A stretch of DNA of 64,000 nucleotides from Trebouxia sp. TZW2008 (taxonomy: Eukaryota; Chlorophyta; Trebouxiophyceae; Trebouxiales; Trebouxiaceae). Where the stretch lies: contig BDIU01000362.1 of NCBI GenBank assembly GCA_002118135.1, positions 1 through 64,000 of the forward strand. The letters run 5' to 3'. Of this stretch, positions 12,301 to 63,881 are shown one piece after another (position 1 is the first letter of the stretch; every line of letters begins with the position of its first letter). The translations under genes and the position numbers were made by a program. The notes below the pieces were generated by a model, which saw only the letters and a list, made by a program, of their open reading frames with translations, was not told where the DNA came from and did not search any database.

Positions 12301-15300
12301 GCGGCTGCTTGCTGACAAGGCAGGGTTGGCAGATGTACAGGCTATCTTGCAATCCAGCCATGCACCTGCCCTTGTGCCGGTATGTGCTGTCTGCCAAGCA
12401 AATGTCATGCCATTTCTGTTCTAGTACTGCAATCTTTATCCTTGCTCAGCAAAGCGCTAGTTGAGACATCAGACAAAGCTAACATGCGCAAGCTGTCCTG
12501 CAAGCCAGCCATGCACCTGCCTGGGTGCTTCACATCACACAGGACCATTCACCCAATCTTGTCTGTCCCTAACCACTTTCAGGAACTGATGGCTGCCGTT
12601 GACGGGTTCCAGAGGCAACGGACTGTGCAGAGGAAGTAGCAGGGTACTTACTTTGTAAAGTGCGCTGCCTCTGACGCCTGCCAACAGCAGTGACATCGAC
12701 AGTTTCTGCAGCATGTAATATGACACTGCCGAAATTGATAGTGACAGATGCCAGGGGGCCACCCTGGGGAGGCAGGGTTGGTAGGGCCCCTACCAGCCCT
12801 AAATGGGTTGAGGGTCAAGGTTGGGGGGCTGCAGGGCCTGCTCACACCCAATCAGCAGGCTGACATCTTGTTGAGCCACGCATCTTCTGTGTCTCAGAGG
12901 GTCGCACAGACTCATAGTAGTGACTGCTGATGATAGATGCCAGAGGCAATGGACTTCACACAGAAGGGTCAGAACACTGCAGGATGATTGTTACTGTCGA
13001 CAGGCGCCTGCTCATCCTTACTGAGCAGCGTTATGTTTGGAGGCGTCAGACATCCTTTCCTTAATGTATGGGACAGAGACTGATGAAGGGTGCTGCTGTT
13101 GACAGATGCCAGAGGGCAACACAGAGGAGGCGGGGTTGGCAGGGGCCCTGAATGGACTAGGGGTCAAGGTGGGCGGGCTGGAGGGACTGCTCACCCTTAC
13201 TCAGCAGCGACTTGCTGACAAGGCGGACTTAGCTGAGCTGGACGCACTCAGGTGAGACACTGACTAAGCCAGCAATAGTGCAGTGACTGAGCAACAACAG
13301 TACCTAAACCCTTACGAATTGATCGCGCACCCGGAAATTTGAGATTATTCTAGGGCTTCGCGCACCCCTGTCACGCAGGGCCTTGAGGGGTTTTGCGGCA
13401 TCGCGTGTTTGGCAAAATATGGCCAAAATCGCCCAAAAATGGCGAATTTTGAGCGTTTTGGGCACTTTTGAGCCAGAACAATTATTAAGTTGCTTTGCGT
13501 AGGGCACTTTGTGCAGTGGGCAAAATAATCACCCGAGCTGATCGCGCAGGGCAGATTTAACTTTGTATGCGCGATCAATTTGAGGACGTACGGTAGTGAA
13601 ACCATCAGAAATGCGTTCCAAACAATGTACTCCGTGCATGAAGCATTTGATTGCCCACAATTGTTGTGTTTGCTGATGTAAAAGTTTCAGCCAAAGATGA
13701 ACATGATCTGCCAGAGAGCCATTGTTGCAGGCAGGTCATCAAGAGGTCAAGAAATGCTGTTAAGGCAGTCCCTGGTGTACTGTCCGGCAGCATATCTTGC
13801 CCTTGTATCAGACCCTGCATCTCTGTAAAAGGGCCGACCTGTTTTTGCAAGGGGTTGTTTATGGTAGACTTGAACCCTGCACCTCTTTTCAAGAGCGAAG
13901 TGATTGTGACAGGGAGGTTGAAGGCTGCAATTGGAGATCAAGTAGTCCCAAGCGTGCTGTCAATAAGCATGGCTAAACCCTTGCATTGGACGCTGCGCCT
14001 CTGTGCAAAAGACCGTTCCTTGCCTTAGACCCTGCACCTTTGTGCAAAGCCAACTTGTGTGCAAAAGGAAAATTGTTGTTGCAGGGAGGCCATAAAGAGG
14101 TTGAGGACTGCAGTGGGGGACGAAGCAGTGCCAAGTGTGGTGTCAGGAAGCGCGGCAGGACCAGATGTAGTGCCAGCTGAGTCTGACACTTCAGCGCCTC
14201 AAGCCCTGCCTGCACATGGTCAGTCATGCATTCTGTGCTGCTCCAAAGTTGCTGCCTTAGATTGCCTTTGGCACACATTTGGTGGCATCACGCCTGCATG
14301 TTGCGCACACAGCAATAACAGGCTGAGCTTTTGACCCATGATGTGACAGATGTTGCTCCACTGACCATGGCAAAGTGTTGTGTTGGGAGACTGTGCAGCG
14401 TAGCATCTTTGACTAGTGCACTTTGCATGCGCGGCAGTGACCTCCTGCTCAGCCGGACCTGCATTGAGGCTTAGGCTCATCACTGTTCACACTGTTATGC
14501 ATGCTGCTGTAAGCACAAGACCAATGAGCACGTATGCACGCAGCATGAAACAAATTTGCAAAACAAGTTTATGGGAATCTTGTATTGCTGCAGGAGGAAG
14601 AGCAGCAACCCATAGCAAGGGTGCCAATGTGGCTGCGAGTAGTTTGAATGCCAGATTAGCGACCCCAGAGCGCTCCATGTCAGCCGCTAACAAGCTGACA
14701 CCTGGCACCAGGAGAACCATCAGTATGGCACCAACTGCCCAGCTGTCTTCTTCTTTTGGGGCTGTTGCACCTGAGGGGCAGAGTTCCTCTTCTGCTTCAT
14801 CTGGTGCTGGTTCATCTTCTGGCAGCAGTGCAGACTCAGAAATCAGACTCAGGCTTGCAGCATTAGAGGCTCAGATTAGTCATCTGACACAGCCAGGGTC
14901 AGGGATGCTGGGGCGTGACTCTGCCAGGCATGACTCATCATCAGTCAGTGCCCCAGGGGATGAGTCATTGCAGCCAGTGCAGGCTGCCTCAGCGTTAGTC
15001 ACAGGCAGGTTGAGTCAGCTGCAGGAGCAGGTGGACGCCCTGACAGCTGGCAAGGCCAACAAGGCTGATTTAGAAGCCCTGCAGCTTCATGCAGCTGTGC
15101 TTAGCGGTGGCAGCAGTGGCAACACCAGTAGTGGCGATGGCAGCACCAGCAGCAGCGGCGGTGAAGACAAGGGCAGTCAGGGCAATGCTGATGCTGGTAG
15201 GTTCCTCTACAGTCCTTGCTTGGTATTGCTGATTATCAGTAAATGCAGTGTACACTTGATGCTTTGGTTGGAATTAGAGTGTTGACAAATCAGTTTTACT

Positions 15301-16010: not shown

Positions 16011-16070
<60 letters not shown>

Positions 16071-19000
16071 CGTATGTCTGTCTGTACCCCTCTCAAGTTA
16101 ACTTATCCAGAAGACACTGCATGCACTGCAGGCAGCCTATGACAATCTGGAAAGATCTCTGCTAGAATTGCAAGGCAGTTCACCCCCTATACGGCCAACT
16201 GCAGGGCTGCTGGGTGCAGCCCCAATCCCAGCTGGCAAGGCCTCAGGGATAGGGTCACCCAGGGGGTCAAGGGGTCCAGCTGGGGGGTCAGGGGTTGGAG
16301 CTGCAGGCTTCACTGCAGTGAGACCTGCCAGGAGGGGTATAGCGCAAGATGAGAACGCAGGTAAGCTTTTGATTCTACATGTCTGCGGTATGATTATTGT
16401 ATGCCATTATGACATGTCTATTGTGCCTGCTCAAGGCCTTGGACTGATGAGCAATCCAGGCAAGCGCTTAGGTATGACAGGTACAGGGCATGCAGCACTG
16501 ACAGCTGGTGCTCACAATGAAGCTGGAAAACTCGCTCACTCTGCGCGTGTCGCTGACGCCTGCCATTCATTGAACTGAATCTGAACATCTAGAAATCTGA
16601 AAGTCAACCTAGATAAATCTGTCAAGAGCTGTTAAGAGCTGCATTTGGGCAAGCCAACCTTCCCATAGGTTTCAAAGCACTGCAGTCATCATGTGCTTCT
16701 CATGCTGGCAAAAAAGCAAATTATGATTTCAGACATGAAATGCCATTTGTAAACATGCTCTGGTTTGGATTCATGCTACACAGGATGTCTGATTGTGCAA
16801 GATGTCCAGTTGCATGCCAAGTTCTAGCACTGTTTTGGAACGATGCTTGAGTTTTCTGATGTGCAAAATGACCAATTGCACGTCTGACATCTGCCATAGA
16901 CAACATGTACATGGGAATGCAGTGCCTAGCGGAGATTTGGAGGCGCTGCGTGAAGAAGTACAGCAGCTGAAGGGTGTGGTGGAGGTGCTTACTAATGCCA
17001 CGCACCTCATGGCCATTCCAACTGCGGCGGAGACTACAGGTTGTGTCCAGCCCCGCTTTTTGTCAGGGGCCCTTTGCCACAGGCTTTGCTTGAGCTGTAT
17101 TGCACAGAGTTTTCATCTGCCCAGACCAATCTTTGACACAAGCATCAGACATGTTGCTCTTCTTTGCAATTCATGTGCATTCATCCCACAGTCACTTGCA
17201 AGTTTGCAATTCTTGAGCTATGCTTAGCACAGGTACTTAGTAGTGCATGGGAATGCAGTCAGCTCACTTGCAGACTCTACATGGGTCATCACACAATGAC
17301 ATCACAACAGCAACCCATATAAGCGCTATATACAGGCATCACATCAGCTGCCAAAGCGTTCAGCACATAAAAGAAGCAGCAGCAAAAGCATACAGGCATT
17401 CCAGAATGGTGCCAGCACATTTGCTTAGCCTCAGTTGTTTGCGTGCAGGTTGCAGAACAGGTGATGTAGCTGTTACAGAGCTGATTCAAGGAGAGGTCAG
17501 ACCAGGCAGCGTACCCGGCACCTCTGCCACAGCTGTGGCAGGCCCTGCTCCAGCAGCGGCCCCTGCTGCCACAGCTGCTGCAGCTGCGGCTGCCGCCATT
17601 GCGGGGCTGGGGTCCAAGCTGCCTGGAGAGGGGGCAGGGATGAGTAAGGCTGGTGGCTTGCACCTGCTCAGAGGCGCCTCACACCTCAAGCAGGCAAGCT
17701 TTTCTTACATCTGTTGTACATTGAATATAGATACAACAATGTACTTCTGCATGTACACACATATATACATAAAACAACATACTTCTGCATATATACACAT
17801 ACAACAAGTACTTCTGCAGCATGTACACACATACAACAATATACTTCTGCGTCTACACAAGGGCAACATTGTACTTCTGCACGTGCTTACATACAAAACA
17901 CAATAAATCATGTTGTATCCGTTTTCCATTTTGTATACAAAATAGATTGATTGAACGGATTGATGTCCGTTCGACATAAATGAGCTACTTCAAGGCACTG
18001 CTCAAGGAGGGCCCTACTCTGACGCAAGCTGTAGAGCTCATTTAGCCGCATTTGTGAAGATACATCGTGCACTCTGCAAAGTCAATGTCCACCCATACAG
18101 CACAAGAATGCTTCAAGGAAATGGCGTTGTCTGCGTACTTTTCCAAAAAATGCGTTCTTCTATTTCACAATGGATGCAAGCATTTCAAAGCCACAGCTGG
18201 CTTTCTGACCCATGCTGTGTACCAGCAGGGTAGTGCTTCTTCATCAGCAGGGCTGAACCCAGCACAGAGCCCTGCTACAGGGGCTGCTGCAGGCAATGGC
18301 CCTGCCGCACCAGCCCCAACCCCCAGGGCTGATGGCAGGCCCGCAGAGGCCCTGCCCCATCAGTCATCAGGCACAGGTACAACTTGTACACATATCTCAT
18401 AGTCACCAGACACAGCTGCGACTCATAAGGTATGTTGGCCAAGTTACTTGCAATTGTAGATATCACTGTACCTTGCTAATACATGCGAACAATTTTGTCG
18501 GCAGGCCGAGCTTTGTAATCATCATTTGTTGTGTCCCACAAACACGCTGTATCTTGCCCAGCTGTCAACATTTCTGTGTGATTGTAGCACATGTCAACAG
18601 CCTGTCGGGTAGGCCAAAACCTGCAAACAACCTATCTTGTGTTTGTGTTTACGCTCATGGGTGTACTTGTTATTACATTTACAATCACACCATACCCATG
18701 TCGACGCTTGTGATATGTTTCCAGGGGTTGAGGGGGGTGAGGTGTGGGGACCCCTGCAGGAGCTGGTGAGCAGCATGAGGGCCGGCCAACTGGGCCACAA
18801 GATGAATGACAGCGACATACATGACCAGCTGGTAAGCGCAAATCCAATTATCATATAGAGCCTCTGGCTTGATATCGTGAATGCACTTTGCTTGTGTTGA
18901 CACTGAGATAGAAAATCAGCTATTAAGGGACCCTGCATATTTACATGTCCTTAGCACTGTAGCACAAGATGAATGACAGCGACATGTATGACCAGCTAGT

Positions 19001-22000
19001 AAGGGAATCTTGCCTTGCAAATTCTTATTGTCACTATCTGCAAGCATGTTGCAGTCTCTAGAATGACGTACTAAAGCTCAATTGTGGCATGAATGGAAAC
19101 AGGCCATCAATGATTGCAATCCACGTGGTTGTTACTGTTGTTTCATTGCTTGCTGCCATTGTTAAATGCACAGTAGATGCTATTGCATAGAGCCAATTGT
19201 GCAAAATATGCAAGCCAACTTGCACTAACTGCTCCATCAGCATTTCTGGTAGGTGTTGTGCAACCTGCAGGCGCAGCGCCTGACTAATCTGGAGAAGCTG
19301 GTGAAGAAGCTGAGCCTGCAGCCACAGGGCTCACGGCACATTGCAGGGCCAGTTGGGGGCAAGGGCCCTGATGAGCGCTTACTCAGGCGACTTGGCAGTG
19401 ATCTCGCGTTGGTCAAGAGGAGGCTGGATGAGATTGCACCGCCCAGAGATCCTGGAACGCTAATGATGATGCGAGAGGGTGACCATGCTATGTTGGCAGG
19501 CAAACCATTGCAGGGCTACAGGTCTGATCAGCACCTGCAGTTGCCTGCAATTACCTTCAACACAACAGTAAACATGTCAGAACCCTGAGCGCAAGACACA
19601 CAGATATCTGCAATTGTCCAATCTAAGTCTGGCTTGCGTGCTTCTGAGTCTTGCTTGCATGCTTCTCTGCATAAGTTGCCCTCAAAATCCATCCTTAGTA
19701 AAATGTGAATGCAGGTGCATGGCATGTGACTGGCCCCTAGTTAAGTTGGATGCAGATATGGGGGGCTTTGCATTACAGTTGTGCTCGCATAACCTCAACA
19801 TGCTTGAATCATTGCACTAGTTGTGAGTCACAAGTGGGATACGTGTCAATACAGGTGCGTGGCATGTGACCGGCCTCTAGCAAAGTTGGATGCAGATATG
19901 GGTCACTCTGCATCACAATTGTGCTTGCATGACGCCAAGATGAAATCGTCGCGATGGTTGTGAGTCGCATGTGGAATGTATATGATTGCAGGTGCAGCCA
20001 TGTGATCGGGCACTAGCAAAGCTGGACGCAGACATGGGAGGCTTCATACCTGGCCCTCACATGCCAGTCAGTGCATGCTCAATGCCTTCTGACATGCACA
20101 TGCAGCAATACAAGCACACAAGTACAGCAGGCAGAATGTGATTTCAATGTGAAAAGAGGTGCATGGCTTGTGACCTGTCATCAGCAAAGCTGGATGCAGA
20201 CAATGCAGGCTTTGTACCTGGCCCTCACATGTCAGTCAGTGTTAGCATGGACCCCTCCAAGCATGAGAAGAAGAAGCAGCAACCTGGCTCCGTCATGAGT
20301 GTAGGTGCATGGCGTGTGATCGGCCTCTGGCAAAGCTGGATGCTGACATGGGGGGCTTTGTACCGGGTCCTCACATGCCAGTCAGTGTCAGCATGGAGCC
20401 ATCCAAGAATTTTGGGGTGGTGGTGCCTGGCAAGGAGGGCTCAGGGGGGCGGCAGGGGGTTTCCAAGAGGGGCCCTGCCCCTGCCCAGCACAGTAGAAGC
20501 ACTGTCCAGCAGAAAGGTGTGAAGGCTTTCTGTGACTTCGTTGGTGCCAAACTTTGTGAGTTTCTGGGCGTTTGAGGCATAAGTTGTAAGCTACATAAGC
20601 AGCGACAGGATGATTCATGTCAAAATTGAAGCAGTGCCTGCAATAGACTTGGCAAGGAGGGCCCAAGGGAGCAGCGGGGAAATCCCAAAGAGGGGGCCAG
20701 CCCCTGTATTCAACTGTTTGTGCACATCTGCCATAACAAGTGAGGTCCATGCAACAAATTGAACTGATGCCAGAGATATGTCAGCACAAGCTGTAAGCAG
20801 ATATGCTGAGCTGTGTCCAACATGCAACATGCCATCAGGCTCAACACAAATGTTTCAGGATAGCACAGGACCAAACTGGTTGGAGACAGTTACTCAATTT
20901 TGCACCTGGCTGGGCCTGCTGACCCTGTGTAGCACACGTTCAGAATGAATCAATGAAATGAATGGATCGTGATCAGCATGTACATCAGCTGATGTGTGTT
21001 ACAGGTGAGGATCCTGTAGGGCCCCAGAACTGGTTCAAAGATGCACAGGGCCAGGCCGCACAAGCCCTGCCCAAGGAAGATGTCGGACCCCATCTGCCCC
21101 CTGGAGGTCACCCCCCTGCTTTCTTGTCCCTTTTACTTTTCATGTCTGTTGCACTTTGTCCCTTTCAACAATGCCCTTCACCTCCTGCCATTTGTCCTTT
21201 GCCCCTGTGCCTTTTGTGCCTTTTGTGCCTTTTCCACTTCAACCCTTTCAGCAATGCCCTTTGCCTCCTGCCATTTGCCCTTCGCCCTCTGCCTTTCATG
21301 CCTTTGGCCATTGCCCTCTGCCCTTTGGCTTCTGCTTATTGCCCTCTGTGCTTTGCTCTCTGCCTTTGGCCATCGCCTTCTGTCCATTGTGCTATTGACA
21401 CTGTGCCTTTGGCTATTGTCCTCTGCCGTCTGCCCCTTTGCTCTTTCTCTTTTGCGCTAAGCCCTGTGCCCCTTACCCCTTTGTCTCCCTGCCATCCCTT
21501 GAATAGGTGTGTCACATCTGTCAGCCTGACTGAAACACGCATGTGTTGCTTTGATGTTGCAGGATGGAGAGCAGGCACTAGTCAGGGCAGTTGGACACAG
21601 GCCCCCAAAACGAGCCCCAAGCACCCAGGTCAGCTTTGGACTGAGAAAATTCACTTCACCACTTTGGGCTCCACTGTGTTGTTGTTTGCACTAGATGACG
21701 CATGTTGCATACGCCACGCTAGCACACACGTCAGCAACAGCTGGCACAGATCTTACTTGACAACTTTCTTGTGCCATGTAGAAAAATTTGACTGATGCAA
21801 TGTCACTAGCTGCCAGCAGACAGAGTGCATCTTTTGCAAACTGGCCCAGTGGCAGCCAACTTGTGTGCTGCAATATTGAGCTGAACTAAGATGCGCACAG
21901 CTTATACAGTGGGACATTGCGCCATGAATCTGGTAAATGGCAATACGGGTGCTCACGGCTTTTGCTGAATGCTGCAGGATCAAGGACGCCGGGTGAGCAT

Positions 22001-33300: not shown

Positions 33301-36300
33301 GAACACTTGTCAAGTGCAGTACATACTCTCAACGCTCCCTTGACACATCAACATCAGCAGCACCCATGAAGTGCAATGCATACCCTTGTTGCTCGCTTGG
33401 CACATCAATGTGAGCAGCATCCATTCATCGCAATTCATCCATTCGCTCATTCAATGAATGCAATGCACACGGTTGTCGCTCACTTGGCACACTGATGTGA
33501 GCAAATGGCAAACAACTGACTGCTGTGTACACCTCAAGACTAAGAATGTCAGCACATCATCTTCAGCATTGACCAGTATCCCACAAAGGCTGCATTGCAC
33601 ATTGGCACTTCTAGTCCTAGCTGACCCCCATGAACAACTTTTCATGGACAATTCTGCCTGTTGAACCCAGCGCTACACCCAAGCAATCATCAACAAACAA
33701 CAGGAGTGTTCCTTTGTGCTACAGTCTTTGGGGCGTTATTTGCCTAGAGCATATCACAGCAGTGACATATGCAGTTGCGCTGCTTTTCTCCATCATAGAT
33801 TCTTGTGCTCACCTGAAGTAAGCTGCTATCAGAGCTGCTCTTGAAGTGCTGAAGCTGCTTCTTGTGGTTTGTCAGCATGCTCTGCAGCACCATTTTTGCA
33901 ATCTCGGGCGTGTCCCACAAGCCGTCATCTCCTTTGCTGTAGATGCCACCTTCTATCAATGCCACTGCTGATGGGATGTACATCACCTGAATGCACATCA
34001 CAATACACTGATTGCTTAAGCCAGTATGGTTGCGTTGCTTGACAACAGCTTTTGCTTTCAAAAAGTTGGCACTGCCATGGACATGGCTTTGCCAGCATGC
34101 TCTGCAGCACCATGCTGGCAATCTCAGGTGATGCCCACAAGCCGTCATCCCCTTTGTTGTAAACGCCGTCTTCTATCAACGCCACTGCTGATGGGATGTA
34201 CATCACGTGAGTAACACATCACAAACCACCGTCAGAGCTTGTGCTGATGGAATGTGCAACCTCTGAACACACACATGCTGCACATTCTATCAAAGCTGTT
34301 GCTGATGGAATATGCATCACCTGAGGATACATCACATGTCATTGTCAGAGTTTGCGCTGATGAAATGTGCATTCCTTGAGCAAACATGGAGATTATTGAC
34401 TGCTTCATTGCAAACACAGTCAGAGTGTTGGATGCTAGACTGCAGAGCAGATTTTGCATTGAGAAACACTCCTCTTCACTGAAGGTACCAGCTTGTGCCA
34501 GAGCTTGTGCTGATGGGGTGTACATCATTGGAGAACACATCAACAACACTGCTTGCTTCATCCCCAAACCGTTCTAGTATGTGCCACGGCAATGCTCTTC
34601 CCAAAGTTTTTATGCGTAATTGATAAACCTATATGACAGAATGATTACCAGCCAGCCCTGAGATCTTGCCCAAATCACAAGTGATGCCAAAGCGATGTTA
34701 CTAACTGGAATTGATTTAGTGATGCTCTTGCTGAAATGGTCAGTGCAACTAGTTCAGCCTATATGGCACATGTGCTTACCAGCTAGCCCTGGCATCTTGC
34801 CAAGTCTACAAGTGATGCCAGGGCAATGCTTCTGCCACAACAATGACTTGTAACACTTGGCCCAATACAGCACAAAGGCTTGCCGACCAGCCCTGAAATC
34901 TTGCCCAGTCTACAAGTGATGCCAGGGCAATGGTCTTGCCACATGATGCTCTGCTGCTCGCCATCATATGAGACAGCAATCAGATAGAAGCTTTGGCAAT
35001 GGCTTGAAGTTGTAATTGGTCTACTCCTTTGTAGACACAGGACTCTGCTTACCAGCCAGCCCTGGGATCTTGCCCAGTCTACAAGTGATGCCAGGGCAAT
35101 GCTCTTGCCGCAGCCTATTGGTCCCTCCAGGTACAGTTGACTATGGCTCCTAGATTTTGCTTTCAGGTGCAGCTGCCGTATGCAGTCTCTGTACTGGACC
35201 ATGCTAGACCTTGTGTATGCTATTTCAGCCTGCACAAAACATCAAACATCATGATAATGATGAGGCAAGTATGTACATTGAAGAGCAGGGCAAGACTAGA
35301 ACCAAGTTCATGCCAAAGATGATGAAAGATGATGATCACGACGGCGCAGACAAAAGTTGGCACATGCTGGCACAAATACTAGCTGTGTGCGGCCTAATTG
35401 ATCAAACAGGTCAATTGTAATGACCCAGAACACATAACACAAGAGGTTCTCTTGACCAGCTGAATCCAGTGCAATGTAGCCAGCAGTCACAGCTTGCATG
35501 CAGCAACTTGCAATAATGACTATCTGTAGGTCTGCATGACCTTGGTGCAAGCTTTGGCTCCATGAGCACTGTGCAACTTGTGTGACTCACCAGCCAGAAT
35601 GTGTAGAGTGGCCACCTTGATGTAGAGCTCAAATACATGCTGACATTCAAGCCAGCCAGGACGCAGTTGGGTCTGTGACATGCAGAGCGGCCTGACAGCC
35701 TTTCAGAGCAAGACAAACTCTACGATAATGAGTCACAGCAAGTGAACCTGGACAAATAAGAAGCCAAACTTGAACAAGCTGATACATCCTGGATGACTTG
35801 TGTGGAGACATTGGCTTTTTGCACTGAAGACAAAACCTGAAGCATGCCAAAATGCATGATGAATGTACCTGTAAGCCTCTGCATCCTCCATTCTCCAGAA
35901 TGCTGTTCTCGTAAAACTGGTTCATAGCTTCAGGCATCAGGTCAGTGTCCAGCTGGTAGTAGCGATTTACATCATTCTCTGTCAGGTCTTTTGCTGCAAC
36001 ACGGGATGCGTAAATTTGACACCTGCACCACACAATCACCAGTCAGCATAAGCCTCAGCTTATCACACAGCTGTAAGCTCACTGATCATCTTGAGCAGTG
36101 CACATCATCCTGTGTCAAAGTCTCTTGCTGCAGCATGGCATGCGTAGACTTGACACCTGCATCACACAATCACCAGTCAGCATAAGCTTCAGCTTATCAC
36201 ACAGCTGTAAGTTTCACTGATCATCTTGAGCAGTTCACATTTTCCTGTGTCAAGTCTCTGGCTGCAGCATGGGATGCGTAAATCAGACACCTGCACCACG

Positions 36301-38611
36301 CAATCACCACTCAGCATAAGCCTCAGCTTATCACACAGCTATAAGTTTCACTGATCATCTTGAGCAGTTCACATCATCCTGTGTCAAGTCTCTTGCTGCA
36401 ACACGGGATGCGTAAATTTGACACCTGCAGCACACAATCACCAGGTGGCATTAGCCTTAGCTGATTGCACAGCTGTAAGTTTCACTGATCATCTGAAGCA
36501 ATTCGTATCCTGTGTCAAAGTCTCTTGCTGCAGCATGGGATGCGTAAACTTGACAGCTGCACCACACAATCACCAGTCAGCATAAGCCTCAGCTTATCAC
36601 ACAGCTGTAAATTTCACTGATCAATTTAAGCAGTTCACATCATCCTGTGTCAAAGTCTCTTGCTGCAGCATGGGATGCGTAACCTTGACACCTGCATCAC
36701 ACAATCACCAGTCAGCATAAGCCTCAGCTTATCACACAGCTATAAGTTTCACTGATCATCTTGAGCAGTTCACATCATCCTGTGTCAAATCTCTTGCTGC
36801 AGCATGGGTTGCGTAAACTTGACACCTGCATCACACAATCACCAGTCAGCGTAAGGCTTAGCTTATCACACAGCTGTTCCACTGATCACTTTTAAGAGTT
36901 GTATGATTTGCTCAAATGCTGGTATGTCTTTGAGCCAAAAGCATCCTAGCATGGCAGTGCAAGACATACTGCAGCATACTGGTCACTGAGCAGACTACAG
37001 TAAAATCTCTTTGCAGAGACACTCAATGTAAGGACAATCTTGATGTAAGGACAAGGCCATTGACAACCAATCACGGCATTCTCACTGCAGTGGTTCCTCC
37101 AAGTAAGGACAATTCGATGTAAGGACAAACATCTTGGTAATCAAAGCAATGAATGCAAAGATGATTGTCTTGTCTGCAACCATTGCGTGAACGCCTCAAA
37201 AAAGCCAGACTAGCTAGACACCACACAGACCTAGCGCCTGTGCTAGATTGCATAGTCTAAGACTGTTATCACTGTATGTTCTTGCAGAGTTGCATGGCGC
37301 TCTTGATTTGTTACTGTTCACACCAGCCGCTTACCGAGTTTCATGGCGCATTTCATCTTCCATCTTCTTGATATCCTCTGGTGTTAAGCTCTGCTGCTGG
37401 GGGTCACCCCTGGAACCCCCTTCAGCCCTTTTGGGGGCCTGCACGGGGCGGGGGCTCCCTGACCCCACCTGACCCTTCTTGCCCACAAAGCCTGGCCGTT
37501 GAGCCTGGTCACCCTTGGGGTCACTTTGAATAGCAGCAGCAGCGCCAGCAGCTGTTGGGAGCTGAGTTTGGGGATTTGAAGCTGCTGCTGCCTTTTGTGA
37601 CGCCTTCATCTGCTGCTTCTGCAGAAGCCGCCAAGAAGCTGGCTCGGGTGTTTGTGGCTGAGCAGCATCAGGGCGGTTTGAAGTCTGAGGCTGAGCAGAG
37701 TCAGGTGAGGCTGCAGATTGAGGAGCAACAGCTGGTTTTGCATCTGCAGTTTGATCGTTGATGGCGGTTGGTTTAGCTGGCGCAGATAGTGGCACTGAAG
37801 CATCAGGTGTCTGTGCTGCAGACACTGCTGATGCCTTTGCCGCCCGAGCAGCTTTTTTAGCTTTGACATTTTCCCTAAAGTGCTTCCAAGAGTGCTTCTT
37901 GCCAGAACTTGCTGGCTTCGCACCATCTGACGCCTCATTGTTCTTCTTTGACTGAAGTTGCTGCAGCACTTCACCTTGATGCTTTGCTGCGTCAGGATTT
38001 TGGGGCTGTTCCTCAGCAGGGGCTGCTGCAGCAGTCTGAGGAGCTGATGCGGCTTGTAGCCCTTGCTCAGCTTCAGCAGTGTTCCGCTCCCTACGTATCT
38101 TTGCTCTCGTGTTGACGTTCTTGCCTGCTGGTTCAGCATCTTGGGGACCAGCAGGCTCAGCAGACTTTTGAAGATGACCTGGTCCTGATGTCTGTGGAAC
38201 TGGACCTGCAGGAAAACCCATAAAATGGGTTGATCACTGCCAACTAAATTTCAAAGCCAAAAATTGCAAGCCGTGTGATCTGGCAGATGCATAGGTGCGC
38301 ACCATCGGGGTCGATGCGCGGAGGGCCTTGTCGTGAATCAGGTGGCACAGTTTCTGAAGCAAAGCTGCGGCACGCAAGCCAGTACTGCAGCAGGTCTTCG
38401 TGACCCTTGCAGCCCAAGCTTGGCAACAGACAGAGACCACGTTGATCGCTTAGTACTGCCAGCAGCCTCCTGTAGCACAGGACATCGTGAGCTCGTCGGC
38501 TTTGTCATTTTGACTAGCAAAACGGGAGATCAGGCATCAAGCATACTCCTTGCCAGCTCCCTGTAGCGACGCAACGGCGGCTACTCTTCTGGCAGCATGC
38601 AGCGCTTGCAT
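30362..38611 (-). CDS. MRPS29: Mitochondrial ribosomal small-subunit GTPase mS29 (DAP3)
   Basis: mS29/DAP3 is the GTP-binding protein of the mitoribosomal small subunit. Exons: 38611-38547, 38469-38303, 38205-37335, 36022-35869, 35229-35053, 33986-33813, 33018-32929, 32389-32246, 31280-31128, 30779-30611, 30423-30362, giving about 741 aa. The start MQALHAARRVAAVASLQGAG is an amphipathic basic mitochondrial presequence. Exon 3 is a long Ala/Gln/Pro-rich, charged extension not usual for the family. The core follows: DVNRYYQLDTDLMPEAMNQF, Walker A (EGPIGCGKSIALASLV, exon 5), YIPSAVALIEGG (exon 6), Walker B-like VMIAVDDYNILYS (exon 8), FVGAASYAGPVSPKL with IPRLSLDEATQQLKYY (exon 9) and a GSAKELRQW element. 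Exons 5-9 are all phase 0-0, and each exists in extra tandem copies. The last junction (30611 to 30423) uses a non-ideal donor; reading through instead ends the protein near 30571. Confidence 0.85.
31128..31797 (-). repeat. Four copies of mS29 exon 9
   Basis: Minus-strand copies start near 31797, 31612, 31444 and 31280, each right after a GCATGCAG-like acceptor and each reading (K/T)xPK(N/T)G(M/I)FVG. The copy at 31280-31128 is the canonical exon with a GT donor. The copy at 31797 keeps the full PSPKLRVPCP to LNEATQQLNYY length but lacks a clear donor. The middle two diverge after about 20 codons. Confidence 0.75.
32020..32765 (-). repeat. Partial copies of mS29 exon 8
   Basis: The 5' edge of exon 8 (acceptor plus VMIAVDDYN codons) recurs at about 32557-32593 and 32728-32764. 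Its 3' half (HRRQ-x-Q-x-S-x-LR, then SAFRILEHQ and a GT donor) recurs at about 32024-32105. The complete exon is 32389-32246. The copies therefore bracket the real exon on both sides. Confidence 0.7.
32929..33167 (-). repeat. Two copies of mS29 exon 7
   Basis: The canonical exon 33018-32929 reads LIEDGLVGTKPDSSSMALAN. An upstream copy beginning near 33167 after a TATTGCAG acceptor reads LMEDGLAAIQPGSPSTAAAA and then diverges. Both are in phase 0. Confidence 0.65.
33813..34560 (-). repeat. Up to six copies of mS29 exon 6
   Basis: Full exon 33986-33813 starts VMYIPSAVALIEGGIYSKGD. A near-full copy (about 34206-34090, MYIPSAVALIEDGVYNKGD) has CAC instead of CAG at the acceptor position. Shorter pieces of the same start lie near 34245, 34305 and 34357, and a diverged longer one (MYTPSAQALAQAGTFSEEEC) near 34520. 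Confidence 0.7.
34645..35125 (-). repeat. Four copies of the Walker A half-exon
   Basis: The 3' half of mS29 exon 5, spanning CGKSIALASLVDWARSQGW and the GTAAGC donor, recurs at about 34875-34945, 34785-34840 and 34650-34710. One copy reads CGKTIALASLVDWARFQGW. Each copy keeps a GT following the TGGCTG/TGGTCG edge, but none has an acceptor-bearing 5' half. Confidence 0.65.
35990..36880 (-). repeat. Seven-copy 134-bp array across mS29 exon 4 acceptor
   Basis: A unit marked by GGGATGCGTAAA recurs at about 36003, 36138, 36271, 36405, 36537, 36671 and 36806 (period close to 134 bp). Each unit contains a minus-strand GATGCAG/GGTGCAG acceptor followed by the first codons of exon 4 (CQ(I/V)YA then AAARD) and then intron sequence. 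Only the promoter-distal unit (36022) runs into the complete exon. Confidence 0.8.
36990..37145 (+). repeat. Dispersed TAAGGACA repeat, copy 1
   Basis: A segment beginning CAGTAAAATCTCTTTG with several GATGTAAGGACAA motifs, an internal CCAATCAC..CTGCAGTGG core and another TAAGGACAA pair lies in the mS29 intron. It is homologous to segments at 57680-57830 and, inverted, 63440-63600. The CAGTA-type end and TAAGGACA strings resemble termini of pogo-like DNA transposons; that assignment is inferred. Confidence 0.6.
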
Positions 38612-55200: not shown

Positions 55201-58200
55201 GCAATTTGTCACCGTCAGGTTTCATAACATAAATCCAGGTTACATGAGGAAGAATGGGCAGCTGACCAGGGTGAAGAAGAGGAAGAGGAAGCTGCACCAA
55301 AGGGTGCAGCTGCAGCAGATGAAGCTGGCTGCCCAAATCCTGCAAGAGCGAATTCACTACTAATGTCTTGACCAAGAACTCCGAACAGCTCACTTAATAC
55401 ATGTGGTCCTCACAACACATGCTGGGTGTTTCGTTCAGGCTGCATACTGCTGCTGGGAACATCGTCAACTTTAGCACAGAGCACAGGGAGGTTTGCCTGC
55501 ATAAACCCATATCTCAACGTTTGCACACATTCAAGCATACAAGCTGCTGGTGAGGGAGGAACCTACCTCCAAAAGCGTTTCCAGCAGAAGTTCCAAACAG
55601 CCCTGGTGCAGGGCTGGCTGACGCTGTCTGCCCAGTCTGCCCAAAAGGCCCCAGGGCAGGGCTGGTGGAGGAAGCCCCAGTCTGGCCAAACAGCCCTGCC
55701 CCAGGGCTGGCCGGTGCACCAAATGCGGAGAACAGCCCTGAAGATGTTGTTGTGCTTGCTGCTGATTGACTAGCCAGATTGCCAAACAAAGCAGGAGTTG
55801 AACCAGAGCAAGTAGCTGCAACAGCAAATGAACAAAATTTTGGCATGAATGATTTTGGTCACGTACGCCGTCATCAGCAAATGGCACACTATGTTGCTGC
55901 ATAGTTTGCATGTGCCATGCAATGTTCAGATGAGCCAGCAGACAAAGCAGCTGCGGCGTTGATCTTGGGTACTGGAAGTCACAATTTGAGTGACCGTGAT
56001 GGCAGGCAGCAATATCAGGTATCAGTATTAAACTCGCAAGCGTCACAATGCAGCAGTATGTAAACATCATTATGCAACTGCTGCAGATGTTTGTAAACAC
56101 CGCATTGCATCAACAGCCAGCAGAAGCAACAGTGCTTTAGGCGAGGTGCTGCTGTTTAATGGGAATTGCACTCAAATGCAGCTGTGATGGACATGTGATG
56201 TATGTGTTGCTCACAACAACATTCTGCATGTGTCACCTGTGCTTGCTGGACCAGAAGCTTTCAGCATGCCAAAACCAACTGGTACAGGTGACGCTCCACT
56301 GCTTGCAGCAGCAGGTCCAGCTCCAGAACCAAATGCAGGTGCAGCTCCGGAACCAAATGGAGGGAAAGGAGACGCTCCACTGCTTGTTGCTGCAGCAGAT
56401 GCTACGCCCTGCCCAAAGGCTGATGAAGAGGAAGAAGGGAAAGGGGACGCAGAAGCTGTTGAAGGAGAAGCAGGGGCGGCAGTGCTGGCCGCAGCTGCTG
56501 ATGAAGAAGGTATAGGGAAGGCGAGTGCTGAAGAAGAAGCTGAGGAAGGTGGAGTAGTAGCTGGGGATGGGAGACCAAAAGGTAGGACAGATGGTGCCTT
56601 TGCTAATGCACCTGAGGCAAATATGAAAAACGCTTGTAAATAGGCAGGTTTTGTGCAAGAGAAATTCTGATGGATTATGAGCTTGGTAATTTTGAAGGAG
56701 ATGAGGAAGCGGTGGGTAGCTGCCAGTGGGCATCAAACCAAAAGGTAGGACAGATGATGCCTTTGACAGTGCACCTGAGACACATATGAGAAAGGCTTGA
56801 AGATTGGCAGGGTTTGTGCAAGAAGATTTATGATGGGTTACGAGCTTGGTATTTCTGAGGGGATGGTGGGGTAGCAGCTGGTTTGGGAGACCGAAAGGTA
56901 GGACAGATGTGGCCTTTGCCAATGCACCTGAAGTGCACATTGCAACATACCTTTGCAACCTGTTATGCAAAAGACATGTGCATAAGCTTGGCCTGAAAAA
57001 AGAAGCTGTATAGTTTGGGCTATTGGGTAGTATGGAGCTGAAAAGTGTGCAGATGAACTCTAAAGCAGCAATTATGTCGGCAACATGCCCTTTTGCAAAC
57101 AAACCTGCAAGCAGAAACGTTCAAGAGCCGCTAATCAATCATGTGGAGATCAAATGCTGACCTGATGCTGCACTTGTGCCGGTGGCAGCTGAATTACTGG
57201 TTGCCAATTGAGCCCCACTCCCACTGGCAAAGCCGAAAGGAGAGCTGTTGCCTACTGGGCTCTTGCCAAAGGGGAAAGCGCTGGAAGTGCTGCCTATTGA
57301 GCCAAATGCATTGGCAGCGCTGCTGGAACCTGTGACAGGCAATAGCAGTTCAGCAGATGCATCGGTGACTACACAGCATGCTTGTGGGGTGAGTGTTGGC
57401 AGGCACGATATGCTGGCAGGCTAACAAGGCAGTTGTGCATGGCTGTGCAGCTGTGTTGTGTGTTTGGTAAGAGCGCTGATGAATGATGAATGTGACATTC
57501 TCAGGATTGACCAGGAAGCTGCAGTGTTGATTTGCTATCTGAGCAACTGAATGCCACATGAGCACAGTGAGATATCTGGGTCCAACTTCATTTGTCAACC
57601 TTTGAGGGTTTGTTATGCAAAGAGAGGCAGCTGTTGCTGTCACAAACTCACACAGTCAAGACCACACTTTTTGTGTACGATGCCCTCTCTTTTCACGGAC
57701 ACTTGATGTAAGGACACTCTCAGTGTGTAGACAATGCAATCGGTAGCCAATCACTGGTATTCGACTGCAGTGGCAGCTCTGAGTAGAGACAACTCAGTAT
57801 CAGGACAATTCTGTTAAGAACCAAAGCAGTCATCACAAACAGAGGTCACTGTACATCAGAGCAGTAGCTACATTGCGAGAGGACTATACCTTGTAAGTTG
57901 AAAGTGCTGCTGGTGTTTGCTGAAGAGCCAGTTCCAGCAGACGATGCAGCAGGAGCGGTCGCAGTCTTGCCAGCCTGAGGTGGCAGCTTCTTGTTGGCTT
58001 CCTGCATTTGCAGCATAGGTCTCAAAACGAACTGCACACAGGCTAGCACAGCGTTACACTGCAATGTTTTGTCCAAAACACAATGAGAACGGTGTCTGTG
58101 GATTTTGCAGACTCAAGTGTCCAAGCTTTCTGGCGTCTGTCGTTGCTCAAGTAAGTGTGCATGCTGGCAACCCAAGTGCATTTGTGACATGATAGCCCTG

Positions 58201-61200
58201 AAGTGCTGATCAGAAACGCATGTTCAGAGATGTCTGACTGAAGGTGCATGCACGTACCTGCTGTTGAGACAGGGTTGGCATGGGGGGGTACATAGCCCCC
58301 CCCTTCTTCTTTGCAGCAGCAGGGCTTTTGGGGGCCTCCTGCCCTGTTGCAGCAGGGACAGCTGCATGGGGCCCTGCTGACTTCTCTGCAAACTTCTTGC
58401 CTGCGTCTTGGGCAGCCTGCAATGCATTTCATCAACGGCTCAATGGTTGCAGACTCCACTTACACTTGCAATTTTGAGCCATTTTGAGCTTAAGCCCCCC
58501 AAGTCGGCCTAGAAAGATCTGGAACAAGATTGTTTTGTCTGACATCATAACTAAGAACATTAGACGTCCACTCTGTGATGCTCAGAACAAGCCAGCCGGG
58601 CGAGACAAGATTTGTGCAACACACACCTAGCACTCTTGCTGGTAGTGTAATCCATCTTATTATTGTTACCATTTTGAGCCATGGAAAGCTTTCTGACAAG
58701 TCATCGCAGGCTGCCAAAGCATTCACCTCAGAGGTTCTGCCTTCAGACGCAACTTACTGCGCCATCAAAATGGCCTGGCACAAGGCGTGAACAGCTAAGC
58801 TGGAGGAGAGCGTGGCTAAGGAGTGCAGACCAAACATGCATAGGCGAGGTCGTAAGCTTTGCTCATGAGCAGTATGACATTCGTCAGCAAGTGGACCTTG
58901 GCTTGGGCCGTGGTTGAAATTTGTGGTGTGAAGCCCTGTGGCTGAAGAAGAAGAGCAGAAGAGGGTCGAAAGGACCTTGGCTTGGACCATAGTTGTCAGT
59001 GGTGGTAAAGGCGCCTGAGGCTGAAGAAGAAGAGCAGAAAAGGTCTGAAAGGGCCTTGGCCTGGGCCATAGTCAGCATTTGTGATATGGAGCCCGCATGC
59101 CGAAGAAGAAGAGCACAAGAGGGCTGAAAGGACCTTGGCTCAGGCCACAGTTGGCATTGCTGGTGTGAAACCCTGAGGCTGAATAAGCAGAGCGGAAGAG
59201 GGCTGACAGTACCTTGGCTTGGGCCATATTTGGCATTGGTGGCGTTAAGCCCTGAGGCTGAGAAAGAAGAGCAAAAGAGGGCTGAAAGGACCTTGGCTTG
59301 GGCCATAGTTGGCATTGGTCCCATGGCAGCTTCTGGCAAAAAGAAAGAGCAGAAGGCAGCCAAAGGAGAAGAAAAATGCAACATGAGTACACAAGATGAT
59401 CCAATTTTGCAGCAGGACAAGAACAGGGCCAGCAATTACCTAAGCTTGAGCCATACTTGGCATTCTTGGCATTGCAGGCCTGGGGACAGCAGAAGAAGAG
59501 CAGAAGTCAGCTGAAAGAGCTGAAAGAGAAGAAAATTGCATGAAAGTGCTCATGGAATTGCTGCTGAAGAAGAAGTCAACCAGGAGAATTACCTTGGCTT
59601 GAGCCATACTTGGCATTGGTGGCATCACAGCCTTGGGGGCAGCAGAAGAAGGAGGTGCAGCTGGCACAGCAGGTGAAGGGGCAGCTGCTGCAGATGACGA
59701 AGAAGAAGACGCTGTGGATGCAGCCTTGAGGGCACTTGCTGCCATTGCATTTGCAGCCTGCAACATACACCAAGATTTAAAGTCTCAGTTTAGAATCTAC
59801 TTGTCTGACAGCCACAAAGGCTGTACGCTGGTCAGCTGCAGCTGAAATGGTCTGCAACAGTACCAGAACAGCCGACGCAACAAGAAAAACCAGTTTCAAG
59901 CATACTGCATGCCAGCTCGTCCCACGCCATCCTCAAAAGACAGTGAGCCAGATATAGACAATACATGCACTTCCCATCATTGCTGCCAGATGGTGAGAGG
60001 GACACCAAAAATCATACACAGCACTTGCTGCAGACTGTTGTTGTCAATGCAAGTGGCACTATAGGTAAACAAGGGCTGAAAGACAAACCTTTTGCTGTGA
60101 CTGTGTGGGCATGGGAGGCATTGCTGCCTTCTGTGGCAGCTTCTTTGGGGCAGCAGCTGCAGGGCTGCTTGGCGCTGCCCCTGGCTGACTGTCCTTGACT
60201 AAAGACTGCAGCTTGGCTCCTGACTCAGCAGGGACTGTTTGGAACTGCCCCAGTGAAAATCCACCAGGGCCGCTGGGGCTGGCCCCAGGAGGGCTCTTGG
60301 AGGCGGCCTGGGAGGGGCCCTTTGCAGGAGGGGCTGTTTGCGGCTGACCCAAGGAGAAGGCAGCAGGACTGCTGGGCCCAGCCCCAGAAGAGCCCTTGAA
60401 GGTGGCCTGAGAGGGGCCCTTTGATGCAGCAGGGGCATTTTGAGCCAGCCCAAATGTAGAGAAGGCTGTGCTTGGTGCTGCTGAGGTGCGCGTGTGAGTC
60501 TGAGGCTGAAGTGGTCTCTGAGCTGCTTTTGCACCTGCACCACCTCACTGTCATGCAAAAGCAGATACAGGTCAGGAAGGCATATGTGACACTTAACATG
60601 AAACATGCGCACGCCTTCTACACTGTCAAGAAGCATGTCTGCTTGCACCTGGCCCCTTGCCCTGATTATCCAGTGAAACCCAGCAGCACAGAACACTATA
60701 GTCAACAGCGTAAGCAGCTAGGATTTACCAGGTCTATCAGGTCAAGAGGCCGACTGCAAGCAGACAAGCCTGTTGACATCATGAAACCTATGCAGCTAGG
60801 TCATGATGAGTAGAATGCACTTAATAGTCATCTCAGAGGATTTGCTCCACTTCTGTCTTCAAGGTCTAAATCCAAACATTTGCAGCAGTTTCAAGACACC
60901 AATTAGATCATACATGACTCACATCACACCCACTCAGCCATCGCGCCGGCGCCTGCAACAACTATTGGAGTTGATGATCTTACTGTCTGTGTCAGTGGCC
61001 TTGATCCAGCATGGCAAAGCAAGCACAGGTGTTGCAGGCAGCTTGTAAGTCTAGCTTTTGCATATGTTGCAATGGGAAGAGCCCCCTGGACCAGTCCAGC
61101 GAGTGTCCATCAGCTGGAGCTGCCTCTTGGCCAGACAAAGACCTCATGTTGCAATCAGGACTTGGACAATAATTCTTTTTTCCAGCAAGAAATAAAGACT

Positions 61201-63881
61201 TGCACTTTGTTCCAGCAAATGAATGGACTCCTGCTGAGATTTTCCAACCTTGAGCAGTGCCTTTGGCTGGTCGATCCCAGGGTGATTGGACAGAGGGCGT
61301 GGAGTCCCGTCTGGTCATGCTGCCTGTGTGTTGACTGTCCACCACAGACTGGCTGCCCCTCATTTGGATGCTGCCTAGACCTGCCTGGCTGCCTTGCATG
61401 TGGATGCTCTGCATTGTCACTGCACTGCCTGCATGCACAACAGAATGTCTGCTGCTTGCTTGTTCGCATGGATCCATGTGCATATGAATGATGATAGCAA
61501 CGGGACTGGACGCCTGTGCGCTGACTGTCCACCACAGACTGGCTGCCCCTCATTTGGCTGCTGCCTAGACCTGCTTGGCTGCCTTGCATGTGGATGCTCT
61601 GCATTGTCACTGCACTGGCTGCACGCACAACAGAACGTTTGCCGCTTGCCTGCCCATGTGCATGTGTTTGTGGAGCATGGAAGTGAGAGGGCTGGCTGCC
61701 TCTTGTCAGGATGCTGCCTAAACCTGCCTGGCTGCCTTGCACATGAATGCTTTGCATTGTCACTGCACTGCCTGCAGATACAGTGGGGCCCATTGATATT
61801 TCAAGTGTATCTCAAACCTCACCCATGCAAGATGTAGAGTAACCCCAAGTCCTGGTTCCTTTCTCTTTTGGAATGCAAATTGGGCATGCCTGACTGCCTT
61901 GCTTCTGAATGCTCTGCATTGTCACTGTACTGCCAGCATGCCCAACAAGCGTCTACGCTAGTGATAGCATGACATATTGTCTGTCATGTGGGTGGTGTGC
62001 ATGCGAGTTGTACCATTTGGCTGCCCTGCTATGTTTCCAGCACAGGGCCATGTTCATGCAGCTTAGTGCATGTCACAGGGCCACATGCTCATCTGATGTC
62101 AGTCGATGGCGACATTGATTATTCAAGCACAGGGCCATGCGGAGGGAGCTTAGTGCTTGTCACAAAGTCACATGCTCATCTGATGTCAGTTGATGACGAC
62201 ATTGATCTATAGAAATCAGACACATGAGTCATGCTGACCTTCAGCTTGAGAAGACGAAGACACAGGGAAGGTAAGGTTGGATGGCCCGTCCTTGTATCTG
62301 CTGGGACCTGCAATTGCAACACACATTGTATCAGCAATACATTGGCAGATGCAACTGCACAGCCTTGTCATTGTTACTCACACGTCAAGCGCAGCCAGCA
62401 GCATCATTCAAAGCAATGCTGCTGTCTCAAAGCATGCAAACATGTGATATGCAGTACATGCACTTTGGACAAGTCATCTCAATCCCATGTTTGTAACTAG
62501 CATCGTCTTTTCACGGCTGCCTCGTTGTGGCTAGCACAGTCAGTGCATTTCACACCAGCACTGTGATCTTCTGATAGCTATGCTTGTTATATCACACGTG
62601 GTTGCCTCCTATCATGCAGTGTCATGGAGTGTTGGTGTGGCATGACTCACCAGGGCTGGTGAGTAAGCCTTTGGTAGGGCTGTTGTTTCTTGCGTCCCCT
62701 GCTGCTGCTTTTCTGGCTTCAGCGGCATTGGCCTGCAATCAGTGAATCACCATACGTGACACTCAATACGCAATACATGATACGCAATACGCAGAATTTG
62801 GCTGTATGAATCACTTGAGGTGCAGTGCAAATTAAGAAATACGCATACGGTTGTGCCAAGACGTAATACCCGATACCCAAGTAGTATAAAGCATTAATCA
62901 ATGAGATCAAGAGTATGGTGATTCACTGCCTGCGACACTAATGCACCTTACAAGGTGACGATGATGCATCATGACAGTCCAGGTGCACACAATGATGCTG
63001 ATGACGACGCTGACAAGTGCAGAAGCTCGAAGTGATGCATGCAATCAACAACTGCATCCTGATGCAATGTTGATGCCAAATGCCAGCGCAGCAAGCATGT
63101 GCAAAGAACGGCGTAGCTGCTGATGTTCTCTGATCTTTGAGCTAAGGCGGCGCCAACAACACCCTGCTTGAGTCATACACTAGGTTTGTATGTGGCATGT
63201 GAATACTACATTTGAATGTAGCATGGAAATGCTCATCTTCAATGTGGCATATGAACACACTGTGTAGTAGGGACAAATGAAGCCTTTGTTACTGAAAGCC
63301 TTACCAGCTTGTAATATACTTGTACTTGCACATCTTCTGCATGGTGTGTGAATGAGACATGGGCATGCTGGCATCTTTTGCCATAGTCAGAGGCTGCTGC
63401 ATGGCATGCAGTGTACAGTGACTTCTCTTTGTTTTGACTGCTTTGTTCACCAAGAAAATTGTCCTTGCATGGAGGTGTCCTTACTGAGAGGTGCCATTGC
63501 AGTCAGACTAGATTGGTTGGTTCTCAATGACATTGTCCTTACATTGAGAATGTCCGTACACCAGATGTCCTTTCAAAGAGAAGTTACTGTACGTGCGTCT
63601 GCACACTTTATGAATAGCATTCAAATGTGCTTTGTCCAAGCTGACAAAGCATGTGAAACATTCTCCTAGCCTGCATGCCCAGTACACTAAATGTGCAGAA
63701 ATATGTGCTCACCTGCAGCTTCTGTTTTAGCTTCTGAGCTTTGTCCTGGTTCCAAGCGCTCCACACATCTTCTTTGCCAGCAGCCTGCTTGACCGGGGTG
63801 GGGCTATGGGCCCAGCCCACTTGCCGTTTCTGCTGACTGGCAGGACTCTTCTTCACTGGCTGCCACGGCGACAGTGGAGAC
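52213..63881 (-). CDS. NUP214: FG-repeat nucleoporin, NUP214-like, 5' part missing
   Basis: Phenylalanine-glycine nucleoporins line the nuclear pore channel and bind transport receptors. Exons (minus): 63881-63713, 62732-62651, 61428-61249, 60534-60089, 59757-59593, a mini-exon array, 58416-58258, 58001-57890, 57329-57162, 56611-56237, 55815-55567, 55339-55244, 55192-54905, 54459-54280, 53957-53739, 52460-52213 (TAA). All phases agree. The first visible exons are charged and helical (EDVWSAWNQDKAQKLKQKLQ); the middle is Ala/Ser/Pro-rich with recurring PPMP(T/S)xxQ motifs; the C-terminal third is FG-rich (AFGQPS, GLFGQTG, GFGAAA) and ends PASSNMWSMRR. Coiled coil before a C-terminal FG domain plus a basic terminal tail suggests NUP214; other FG nucleoporins remain possible because the N-terminal domain lies outside the window. 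Confidence 0.75.
52230..53470 (-). repeat. Seven-copy FG-exon array, about 154-bp period
   Basis: A block reading GGGF(G/R)(G/D)FAQQSP(G/D)(F/I) followed by NAF(G/W)AAA recurs near 52429, 52580, 52734, 52890, 53040, 53189 and 53347 (position of the AQQSP codons). Most copies keep a TGCACAG-type acceptor. The one at 53380 has CACGG instead. Only the last (52460-52213) extends into a full terminal exon; the others meet a stop without a good donor. Confidence 0.75.
53648..53669. repeat. (CA)n microsatellite
   Basis: About eleven CA units lie inside an intron between the FG array and exon 53957-53739 of the nucleoporin gene. Confidence 0.9.
55244..55339 (-). repeat. In-frame duplicate of an FG exon's 5' half
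   Basis: This 96-nt segment (FGQPASSAAAAPFGAASSSS) duplicates the beginning of exon 55192-54905, including the TTGCAG acceptor, and ends at a GTAACC donor in phase 1-1. It fits the gene model as a real exon. Confidence 0.65.
56720..56945 (-). repeat. Two partial copies of exon 56611-56237 start
   Basis: The exon edge CAG-GTGCATTAGCAAAGGC, coding GALAKAPSVLPFGL, recurs near 56775 (ALSKASSVLPFGL) and near 56937 (ALAKATSVLPFGL), with acceptors retained. The copies diverge after about 20 codons and have no clear donor. Confidence 0.65.
57675..57835 (+). repeat. Dispersed TAAGGACA repeat, copy 2
   Basis: This is homologous to 36990-37145: CCTCTCTTTTCACGGACACT, GATGTAAGGACA, a CCAATCACTGG..GACTGCAGTGG core, then ATCAGGACAATTCTGTTAAG. 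It lies in a nucleoporin intron. Confidence 0.6.
58897..59329 (-). repeat. Six 79-bp units: 39-nt mini-exon plus 40-nt intron
   Basis: Minus-strand mini-exon ends (CAAG before GTCC/GTAC/GCCC) fall at 59292, 59213, 59134, 59055, 58976 and 58897, exactly 79 bp apart. Each 39-nt unit is in phase 0-0, coding versions of GxxPxMPTMAQAK (for example GLTPPMPNMAQAK), the same peptide that ends exon 59757-59593 (MPPMPSMAQAK). The 40-nt spacers start GTCCTTTCAGCCCTCTT and end TCAG. One copy (59134) has an in-frame TGA and one (59055) a GC donor with no AG before it. Confidence 0.85.
61249..61945 (-). repeat. Four copies of a nucleoporin exon
   Basis: The canonical exon 61428-61249 begins GSAVTMQSIHMQGSQAGLGS. 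Copies begin near 61618 (ASAVTMQSIHMQGSQAGLGS), 61775 (GSAVTMQSIHVQGSQAGLGS) and, short, 61935. Acceptors TGTGCATGCAG, GTGCAG and CTGCAG are kept. Downstream ends differ. Confidence 0.75.
62035..62215. repeat. Tandem duplication of about 95 bp
   Basis: Two adjacent copies start at CAGCACAGGGCCATG (about 62039) and CAAGCACAGGGCCATG (about 62125) and share CACATGCTCATCTGATGTCAG and GCGACATTGAT/ACGACATTGAT ends. They lie in a nucleoporin intron; non-coding. Confidence 0.7.
63440..63600 (-). repeat. Dispersed TAAGGACA repeat, copy 3 (inverted)
   Basis: Read on the minus strand it starts ACAGTAACTTCTCTTTG and continues with TCAATGTAAGGACAATG, a GACTGCAATGGCACC core and CAGTAAGGACACC, matching copies 1 and 2 in order. 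Confidence 0.6.

Follow-up and report, generated by a model that had tools for sequence, protein, structure and literature searches.

Several described systems copy sequence beside itself within genes, and each offers a point of comparison for the alga studied here. In repair-mediated duplication, as it appears in the accessible text of PMC2671141 (Pace et al., 2009), short linked copies are made of nearby DNA, some of them with exons and splice sites; partial exon/intron sequences account for 4 of the 824 donors in Table 2 of that work, one inverted insertion is described, and coding constraint was absent from the two full-exon copies tested. The pairs reported below are likewise short and linked, but they occur densely, in direct orientation and around exon ends, whereas exon donors are rare in that account. 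Tandem exon duplication and mutually exclusive exons (PMC9013439, accessible part) also repeat exon sequence beside its source in the same gene; unlike them, the present copies are mostly partial, carry one splice site, look neutral and follow no phase rule. Intron gain through AGGT tandem duplication, in the accessible portions of PMC3443670 and PMC4974935, again associates local duplication with splice signals, but here the copies sit within existing introns and are hardly ever flush with the next exon. Arrays with units of 153, 134 and 79 bp, in an FG-rich gene and in mS29, recall minisatellites in their contiguous head-to-tail units; most isolated pairs differ in being spaced. Introners, according to the accessible part of PMC9860276, likewise consist of repetitive intron sequence; in contrast to them, the copies and spacers tested here are local, and no dispersed family was found for them. 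At search level, and within the text that the sources make accessible, we recognised no account of exon ends being copied into the introns of algae.

The window, the genome sample and the gene models

The window, by which we mean the whole stretch of 64,000 nucleotides analysed, opens contig BDIU01000362.1 of Trebouxia sp. TZW2008. Its GC content is 49.7%, and the contig belongs to a genome of 68.54 Mb in 527 contigs; Trebouxia genomes in print span 63.1-73.9 Mb and 49.6-51.1% GC according to the accessible text of PMC11523091 (PMC12712428 is another published Trebouxia genome source, likewise accessible in part). Repeats in the window were located by self-BLAST and Tandem Repeats Finder, and ten order-3 Markov sequences gave the chance level for local repeats. 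The genome was sampled with 23 stretches of 10 kb outside the window, 19 at first and 4 added later, hand-chosen via contig number and offset with their content unseen; this choice is arbitrary, not random, and many stretches lie on contigs already named in one genome search.

Exon edges come mainly from our own small HMM gene finder, trained on this genome's sequence. Its splice matrices look realistic, Pfam domains were recognised in six of seven of its proteins, and in a citrate synthase gene on another contig (best named relatives Apatococcus lobatus, 80%, and Coccomyxa viridis, 79%) eight of nine exons agree to within 12 bp with a tblastn alignment of a relative's protein. The genes it missed include L036 and most of MATE, and it apparently called some copies exons, for example at 49029-49058 in the PsbS locus.

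Copies of exon ends in the window

The mS29 gene, its identity supported by a PDB match (7pkq_x, E 5.6e-10) and by the Pfam DAP3 family, contains copies around several of its exons, as follows.

31128-31280, minus strand: mS29 C-terminal exon, APKNGMFVGAASYAGPVSPKLRVP...
31389-31458, 31536-31615 and 31648-31808, minus strand: acceptor-end copies upstream of the C-terminal exon
32246-32389, minus strand: mS29 exon IAVDDYNILY..., with copies upstream, e.g. 32530-32596 (block to 32770)
33813..33983, minus strand: exon after the P-loop exon, (V)MYIPSA..., acceptor CAG/GTGATG (cut at the slash)
34088-34224, minus strand: 137-bp acceptor-end copy of exon 33813-33983, 85% identical, acceptor AG lost
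Up to ~34550, minus strand: shorter decayed acceptor-end copies of the same exon (by eye and alignment)
34862-34943, 34758-34839 and 34628-34697, minus strand: three decayed donor-end copies of the P-loop exon, in its downstream intron
35053..35229, minus strand: P-loop exon, AEIAY...GWL, donor GGCTGGCTG/GTAAGC (cut at the slash)
35966..36900, minus strand: contiguous 134-bp x 6.8 array that covers a putative mS29 acceptor, that of an exon farther upstream

Judged by eye, a stop interrupts the reading frame in one of the three P-loop donor-end copies, and the donor of one is GC. In the intron between 33983 and 35053, 371 of 1069 bp are copies of its two exon ends by BLAST alone, and a genome search that skips very common words matched this intron to its own locus only. 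The upstream exon beneath the 134-bp array (~35869-35993) is a candidate placed by eye. Within 34628-35112 the intron sequence that the decayed donor-end copies have in common with one another extends farther downstream than what they have in common with the functional donor, and this extra intron fits no model considered here.

Elsewhere in the window the copies and arrays are these.

6497-6640, plus strand: exon of an LHC-type gene (named by eye), donor-end copy at 6699-6749
12121-12298, plus strand: coding tandem inside an exon of the QRICH2-like gene
12742-12858 and 13100-13207, plus strand: duplicated exon start, QRICH2-like gene, 75% identical, both predicted exons
18725-18831, plus strand: QRICH2-like exon, donor-end copy at 18963-19003 (41 bp, 92.7%)
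20160-20264, plus strand: example of the QRICH2-like acceptor-end copies (block from 19704) upstream of exon 20305-20516
26248-27801, no strand assigned: noncoding tandem array of 153/205-bp units between MATE-like reading frames
49201-49322, minus strand: PsbS exon
49198-49249 copied to 49026-49077, minus strand: PsbS donor-end copy, 52 bp, 88% identical, spacer 120 bp
52216-52460, minus strand: last exon of the FG-rich (nucleoporin-like) gene
To 53485 (array 52377-53485), minus strand: contiguous 153-bp x 6.9 array of acceptor and exon start, upstream of that last exon
54285-54424, minus strand: tandem inside an exon, FG-rich gene
55084-55206 and 55231-55354, minus strand: paired copies, FG-rich gene, 89.5% identical, both mostly predicted coding
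58893-59651, minus strand: block with a 79-bp array (contiguous array 58893-59319), FG-rich gene
56533-56931, 60226-60466 (within an exon), 61322-61947 and 62035-62206, minus strand: other blocks of the FG-rich gene

An initial annotation had reported extra exon copies in mS29, PsbS, a nucleoporin and a QRICH2-like gene, and self-BLAST and Tandem Repeats Finder confirm local copies of exon sequence in all four. The names fared unequally: PsbS, like mS29, has a PDB match (4ri2, E 3e-12), but scanning three reading frames for the nucleoporin and four to five for the QRICH2-like gene gave no convincing Pfam match, and both names are kept here as labels. Four genes had also been listed as free of copies. 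Three of them, PRORSD1, SPO16-like and HEI10 (~38.8-46 kb), indeed contain no repeat block, but the MATE region holds the noncoding array at 26248-27801, which also has inverted-repeat sections.

Exon ends copied into adjacent introns across the genome

Local direct repeats cover on average 11.6% of bases in the 23 stretches, one of which is repeat-free. Coverage is 12.3% in the 19 stretches chosen first; the window, over its first 60 kb, has 13.6%, and the ten Markov sequences have 0. Repeat blocks number 3.7 per 10 kb in those 19 stretches and 3.3 in the same 60 kb of the window. The window is typical of the genome for local repeats, and the copying extends beyond four genes, the LHC-type gene of the window itself being affected too. 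The orientation is strongly one-sided: pairs at most 2 kb apart comprise 165 direct and 2 inverted in the 23 stretches, and those farther apart 4 direct and 1 inverted. Aligned pairs are 34-914 bp long (median 103), and among the isolated ones (n=63) 50 are spaced and 13 contiguous. The 165 close pairs fall within the distance and size that define repair-mediated duplication (source and copy at most 5 kb apart; tens to hundreds of bp).

Pair identity ranges from 65 to 96%; three of the 165 pairs lie between 95 and 98% and none reaches 98%. That duplication recurred, and was not one event, is well founded in this range and in the many blocks found genome-wide, but the identities lend no support to its continuing, as had been proposed; assembly collapse could hide the youngest copies. 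An assembly artefact as the source of the repeats is most improbable, since 165 pairs with 65-96% identity, together with tested spacers that are unique, do not represent one sequence assembled twice.

Repeats and splice sites coincide more often than chance would have it. Of the 91 repeat blocks in the 23 stretches outside the window, 49 enclose a predicted splice edge, where 33.4 +- 4.2 were expected by shifting (0 of 500 shifts reach the observed value); the window alone has 9 of 21 blocks against 9.9 expected, no excess, and all 114 blocks give 58 against 43.6 +- 4.9. A splice motif stands at the intron-facing end in 36% of the 50 gapped pairs, as compared with 10% at random positions; the 13 contiguous pairs show a weak excess (23% vs 8%). 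Among five mitochondrial-carrier genes retrieved via Pfam hits, three contain four repeat pairs, all of which overlap an exon edge in our own reading. Local repeats are densest in stretch L022, at 40.7% of bases, where one predicted gene that lacks a Pfam hit is copied at several of its edges.

The same matter can be seen from the exons. The test covered 217 internal exons (157 from the other stretches, 50 from the window, 10 from carrier genes), each 75 bp or longer and from a gene with a score of 40 or more. For 41 of them (~19%, in this one genome) part of the exon recurs in an adjacent intron, which makes 30 of 157, 10 of 50 and 1 of 10, respectively. Matching each exon to the flanks of one exon elsewhere, as a cross-locus control, gave 0 of 217. 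The exon matches are 85 in sense orientation and 0 in antisense, 70 of the 85 being in an adjacent intron. Among the 41, the copy includes a single exon end in 29 cases, the interior in 11 and both ends in 1, so that the copied unit is usually an exon end together with its splice site, and not the whole single exon of the earlier description. Random placement would give 10.6 single-end copies, and none of 2000 simulations reaches 29; in the other stretches alone there are 22 of 30 against 6.7 expected. Polarity is equally marked: 28 of the 29 single-end copies lie in the intron that adjoins the copied end (21 of 22 in the other stretches), and one is on the wrong side. In a looser list made at the DNA level 12 of 54 rows break this polarity; in each of them the second copy is exonic in part, the exonic portion is shorter than 25 bp, or the row comes from a whole-exon pair.

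These counts bear on the capture of random nearby DNA at intron breaks, with the link to exon edges due to detectability only. The copies are indeed proximal, short, spaced and sharp-ended, like the class known from primates in the accessible text of PMC2671141, and size and distance fit. The edge bias does not: exon-interior copies should then dominate, yet the position of the template is tied to exon edges well above the random-capture expectation, and polarity and orientation are too strict. We therefore regard random capture as an unlikely source of the copies.

Two further proposals made for the window can be judged here. Phase-symmetric exons had been thought to be favoured, but the length is divisible by three in 20 of 41 copied exons and 88 of 176 uncopied ones. 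The birth of introns from duplicated AG/GT boundaries needs a copy flush with the next exon; among the single-edge intron-side copies 1 of 50 has its end 9 bp or less from the predicted exon that follows, and the median distance is 338 bp, which speaks against it.

Fate and origin of the copies

Where one copy of a pair is non-exonic (25 pairs), the three codon positions carry 71, 69 and 120 substitutions, close to what one constrained and one free copy would give, so that the intronic copies are not maintained as coding sequence; the pattern also rules out long constraint on both copies. With an in-frame stop in 14 of 70, the copies look neutral, and judged from their sequence they are apparently silent leftovers of local duplication, not spare exons. 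Alternative or mutually exclusive splicing of functional duplicate exons kept by selection, raised as a possible outcome for the window genes, would require coding constraint on both copies and duplicates of whole exons with their two splice sites. It can point to the QRICH2-like pair at 12742/13100 and the FG-gene pair at 55084/55231, predicted coding in both copies, and to a carrier gene of stretch L033 (1436-1561 and 1776-1900), where by eye the exon copy differs mostly at synonymous sites and may now or recently have been a working exon. Most copies, however, are neutral-looking with one splice edge, phase symmetry is wanting, and in the one gene compared, citrate synthase, the relative's protein is without the copies. 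As a general explanation we hold functional exons to be very improbable.

The explanation that we favour, with a confidence somewhat better than even, is that local duplications straddling a splice junction are invisible in the mRNA as long as the outer splice site is used, and decay in the introns. Many short local direct duplications would arise throughout the genome by a tandem-type event as breaks are repaired, whether or not filler DNA is added; some would be contiguous and yield minisatellite-like arrays, while most isolated ones would be spaced. When such a duplication crosses a splice junction, the outer copy would still adjoin the exon body, splicing would be unchanged and the mature mRNA the same, while the inner copy, which consists of a donor or acceptor and the exon end next to it, would be left in the intron to decay neutrally. 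Selection, acting as a filter, would mostly purge duplications that lie inside coding exons, and introns would gather worn versions of the exon ends beside them, those of donor ends downstream and those of acceptor ends upstream. Edge bias, polarity, neutral decay and sense orientation would then follow because junction-straddling duplications survive while the exon-contiguous site is still used. Against this account count the 11 of 41 best copies that are exon-interior, the single-edge copy on the wrong side and the lack of splice-edge enrichment in the window alone; it also leaves unaccounted for the unique spacers and the stop of homology just inside the intron.

Contiguous tandem duplication would predict spacers homologous to the flanks of the copies, but such homology is absent from 36 of 38 isolated gapped pairs, which argues against a simple tandem event; together with the simulation described below, this rules out that gapped pairs are decayed contiguous tandems. 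Two spacers, among them the QRICH2-like spacer at 18837-18962, matched no place in the genome outside their own locus, and neither did the mS29 intron, in a search that skips very common words and so does not prove rarity. A mobile element as spacer is accordingly rejected for the two tested.

The ends of homology were compared with a simulation of random breakpoints followed by decay, on a small set of 20 pairs with edges from our own gene finder: 19 from the 54-row DNA list and PsbS, kept by hand though 58% of its other copy is predicted exon, the prediction at 49029-49058 being taken as spurious. The rows left out had a partly exonic other copy, an exonic part below 25 bp or, in stretch L020, a whole-exon pair. 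Homology runs at most 16 bp into the intron in 17 of the 20 pairs as against ~40% in the simulation (Mann-Whitney P 1.5e-4), and in all 8 of the youngest, whose identity is 88% or more, as against ~46% (P 0.007). Leaving out PsbS gives 16 of 19, and adding two L020 rows to the 20 pairs gives 17 of 22; in the L020 whole-exon pair (2559-2736) the intronic parts are 19 and 90 bp. All 20 pairs are on the intron side, and with mirror positions free in 8 of 20 this gives P ~0.004. Over edges pre-chosen for at least 25 bp of exon, identity is at background by about +15 to +20 for 26 donors and -15 to -20 for 36 acceptors. Copies include the splice motif, and an exon-exon junction is spanned in 2 of 104, which excludes spliced mRNA as template.

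Such sharp stops are what copying linked to splicing would predict: exon ends copied to adjacent introns in sense orientation and ending just past the splice site, so that introns grow from their own exon edges, for example because an intron break is repaired from nascent pre-mRNA or from exon DNA bounded by stalled complexes. The short reach into the intron, the 85 sense and 0 antisense matches, the intron-side placement of all selected pairs, the included splice motif and the near absence of exon-exon junctions all agree with it. On the other side, contiguous arrays with at least 70 bp of intron exist, at least one pair (that of L020) has 90 bp, selection alone also yields edge bias and polarity, and survivors could be biased towards copies that lack intronic splicing context. 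On balance copying linked to splicing is, to our mind, rather improbable; should the abrupt end of homology at splice sites hold against an empty site in a relative, it would indicate a mutational process coupled to splicing.

If about one fifth of internal exons have left partial copies in introns, these introns constitute a readable record of their own growth, and this record opens the lengthening of introns to testing, and likewise the tolerance of splice-site choice for decoys nearby. It is a warning to annotators as well, because the intronic copies resemble exons.

Repeats of other kinds also occur in the window, where Rfam at gathering scores gave no match. A dispersed element of ~75 bp, TTACTTAGTTGGTGATCTGGAAGCAGACTTCC..., lies at 30245-30334 and has at least 40 further places in the genome at 81-93% identity. 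One dispersed repeat family is present at 36996-37161, 57686-57855 and 63412-63591, and a second at 2168-2292 and 58515-58641.
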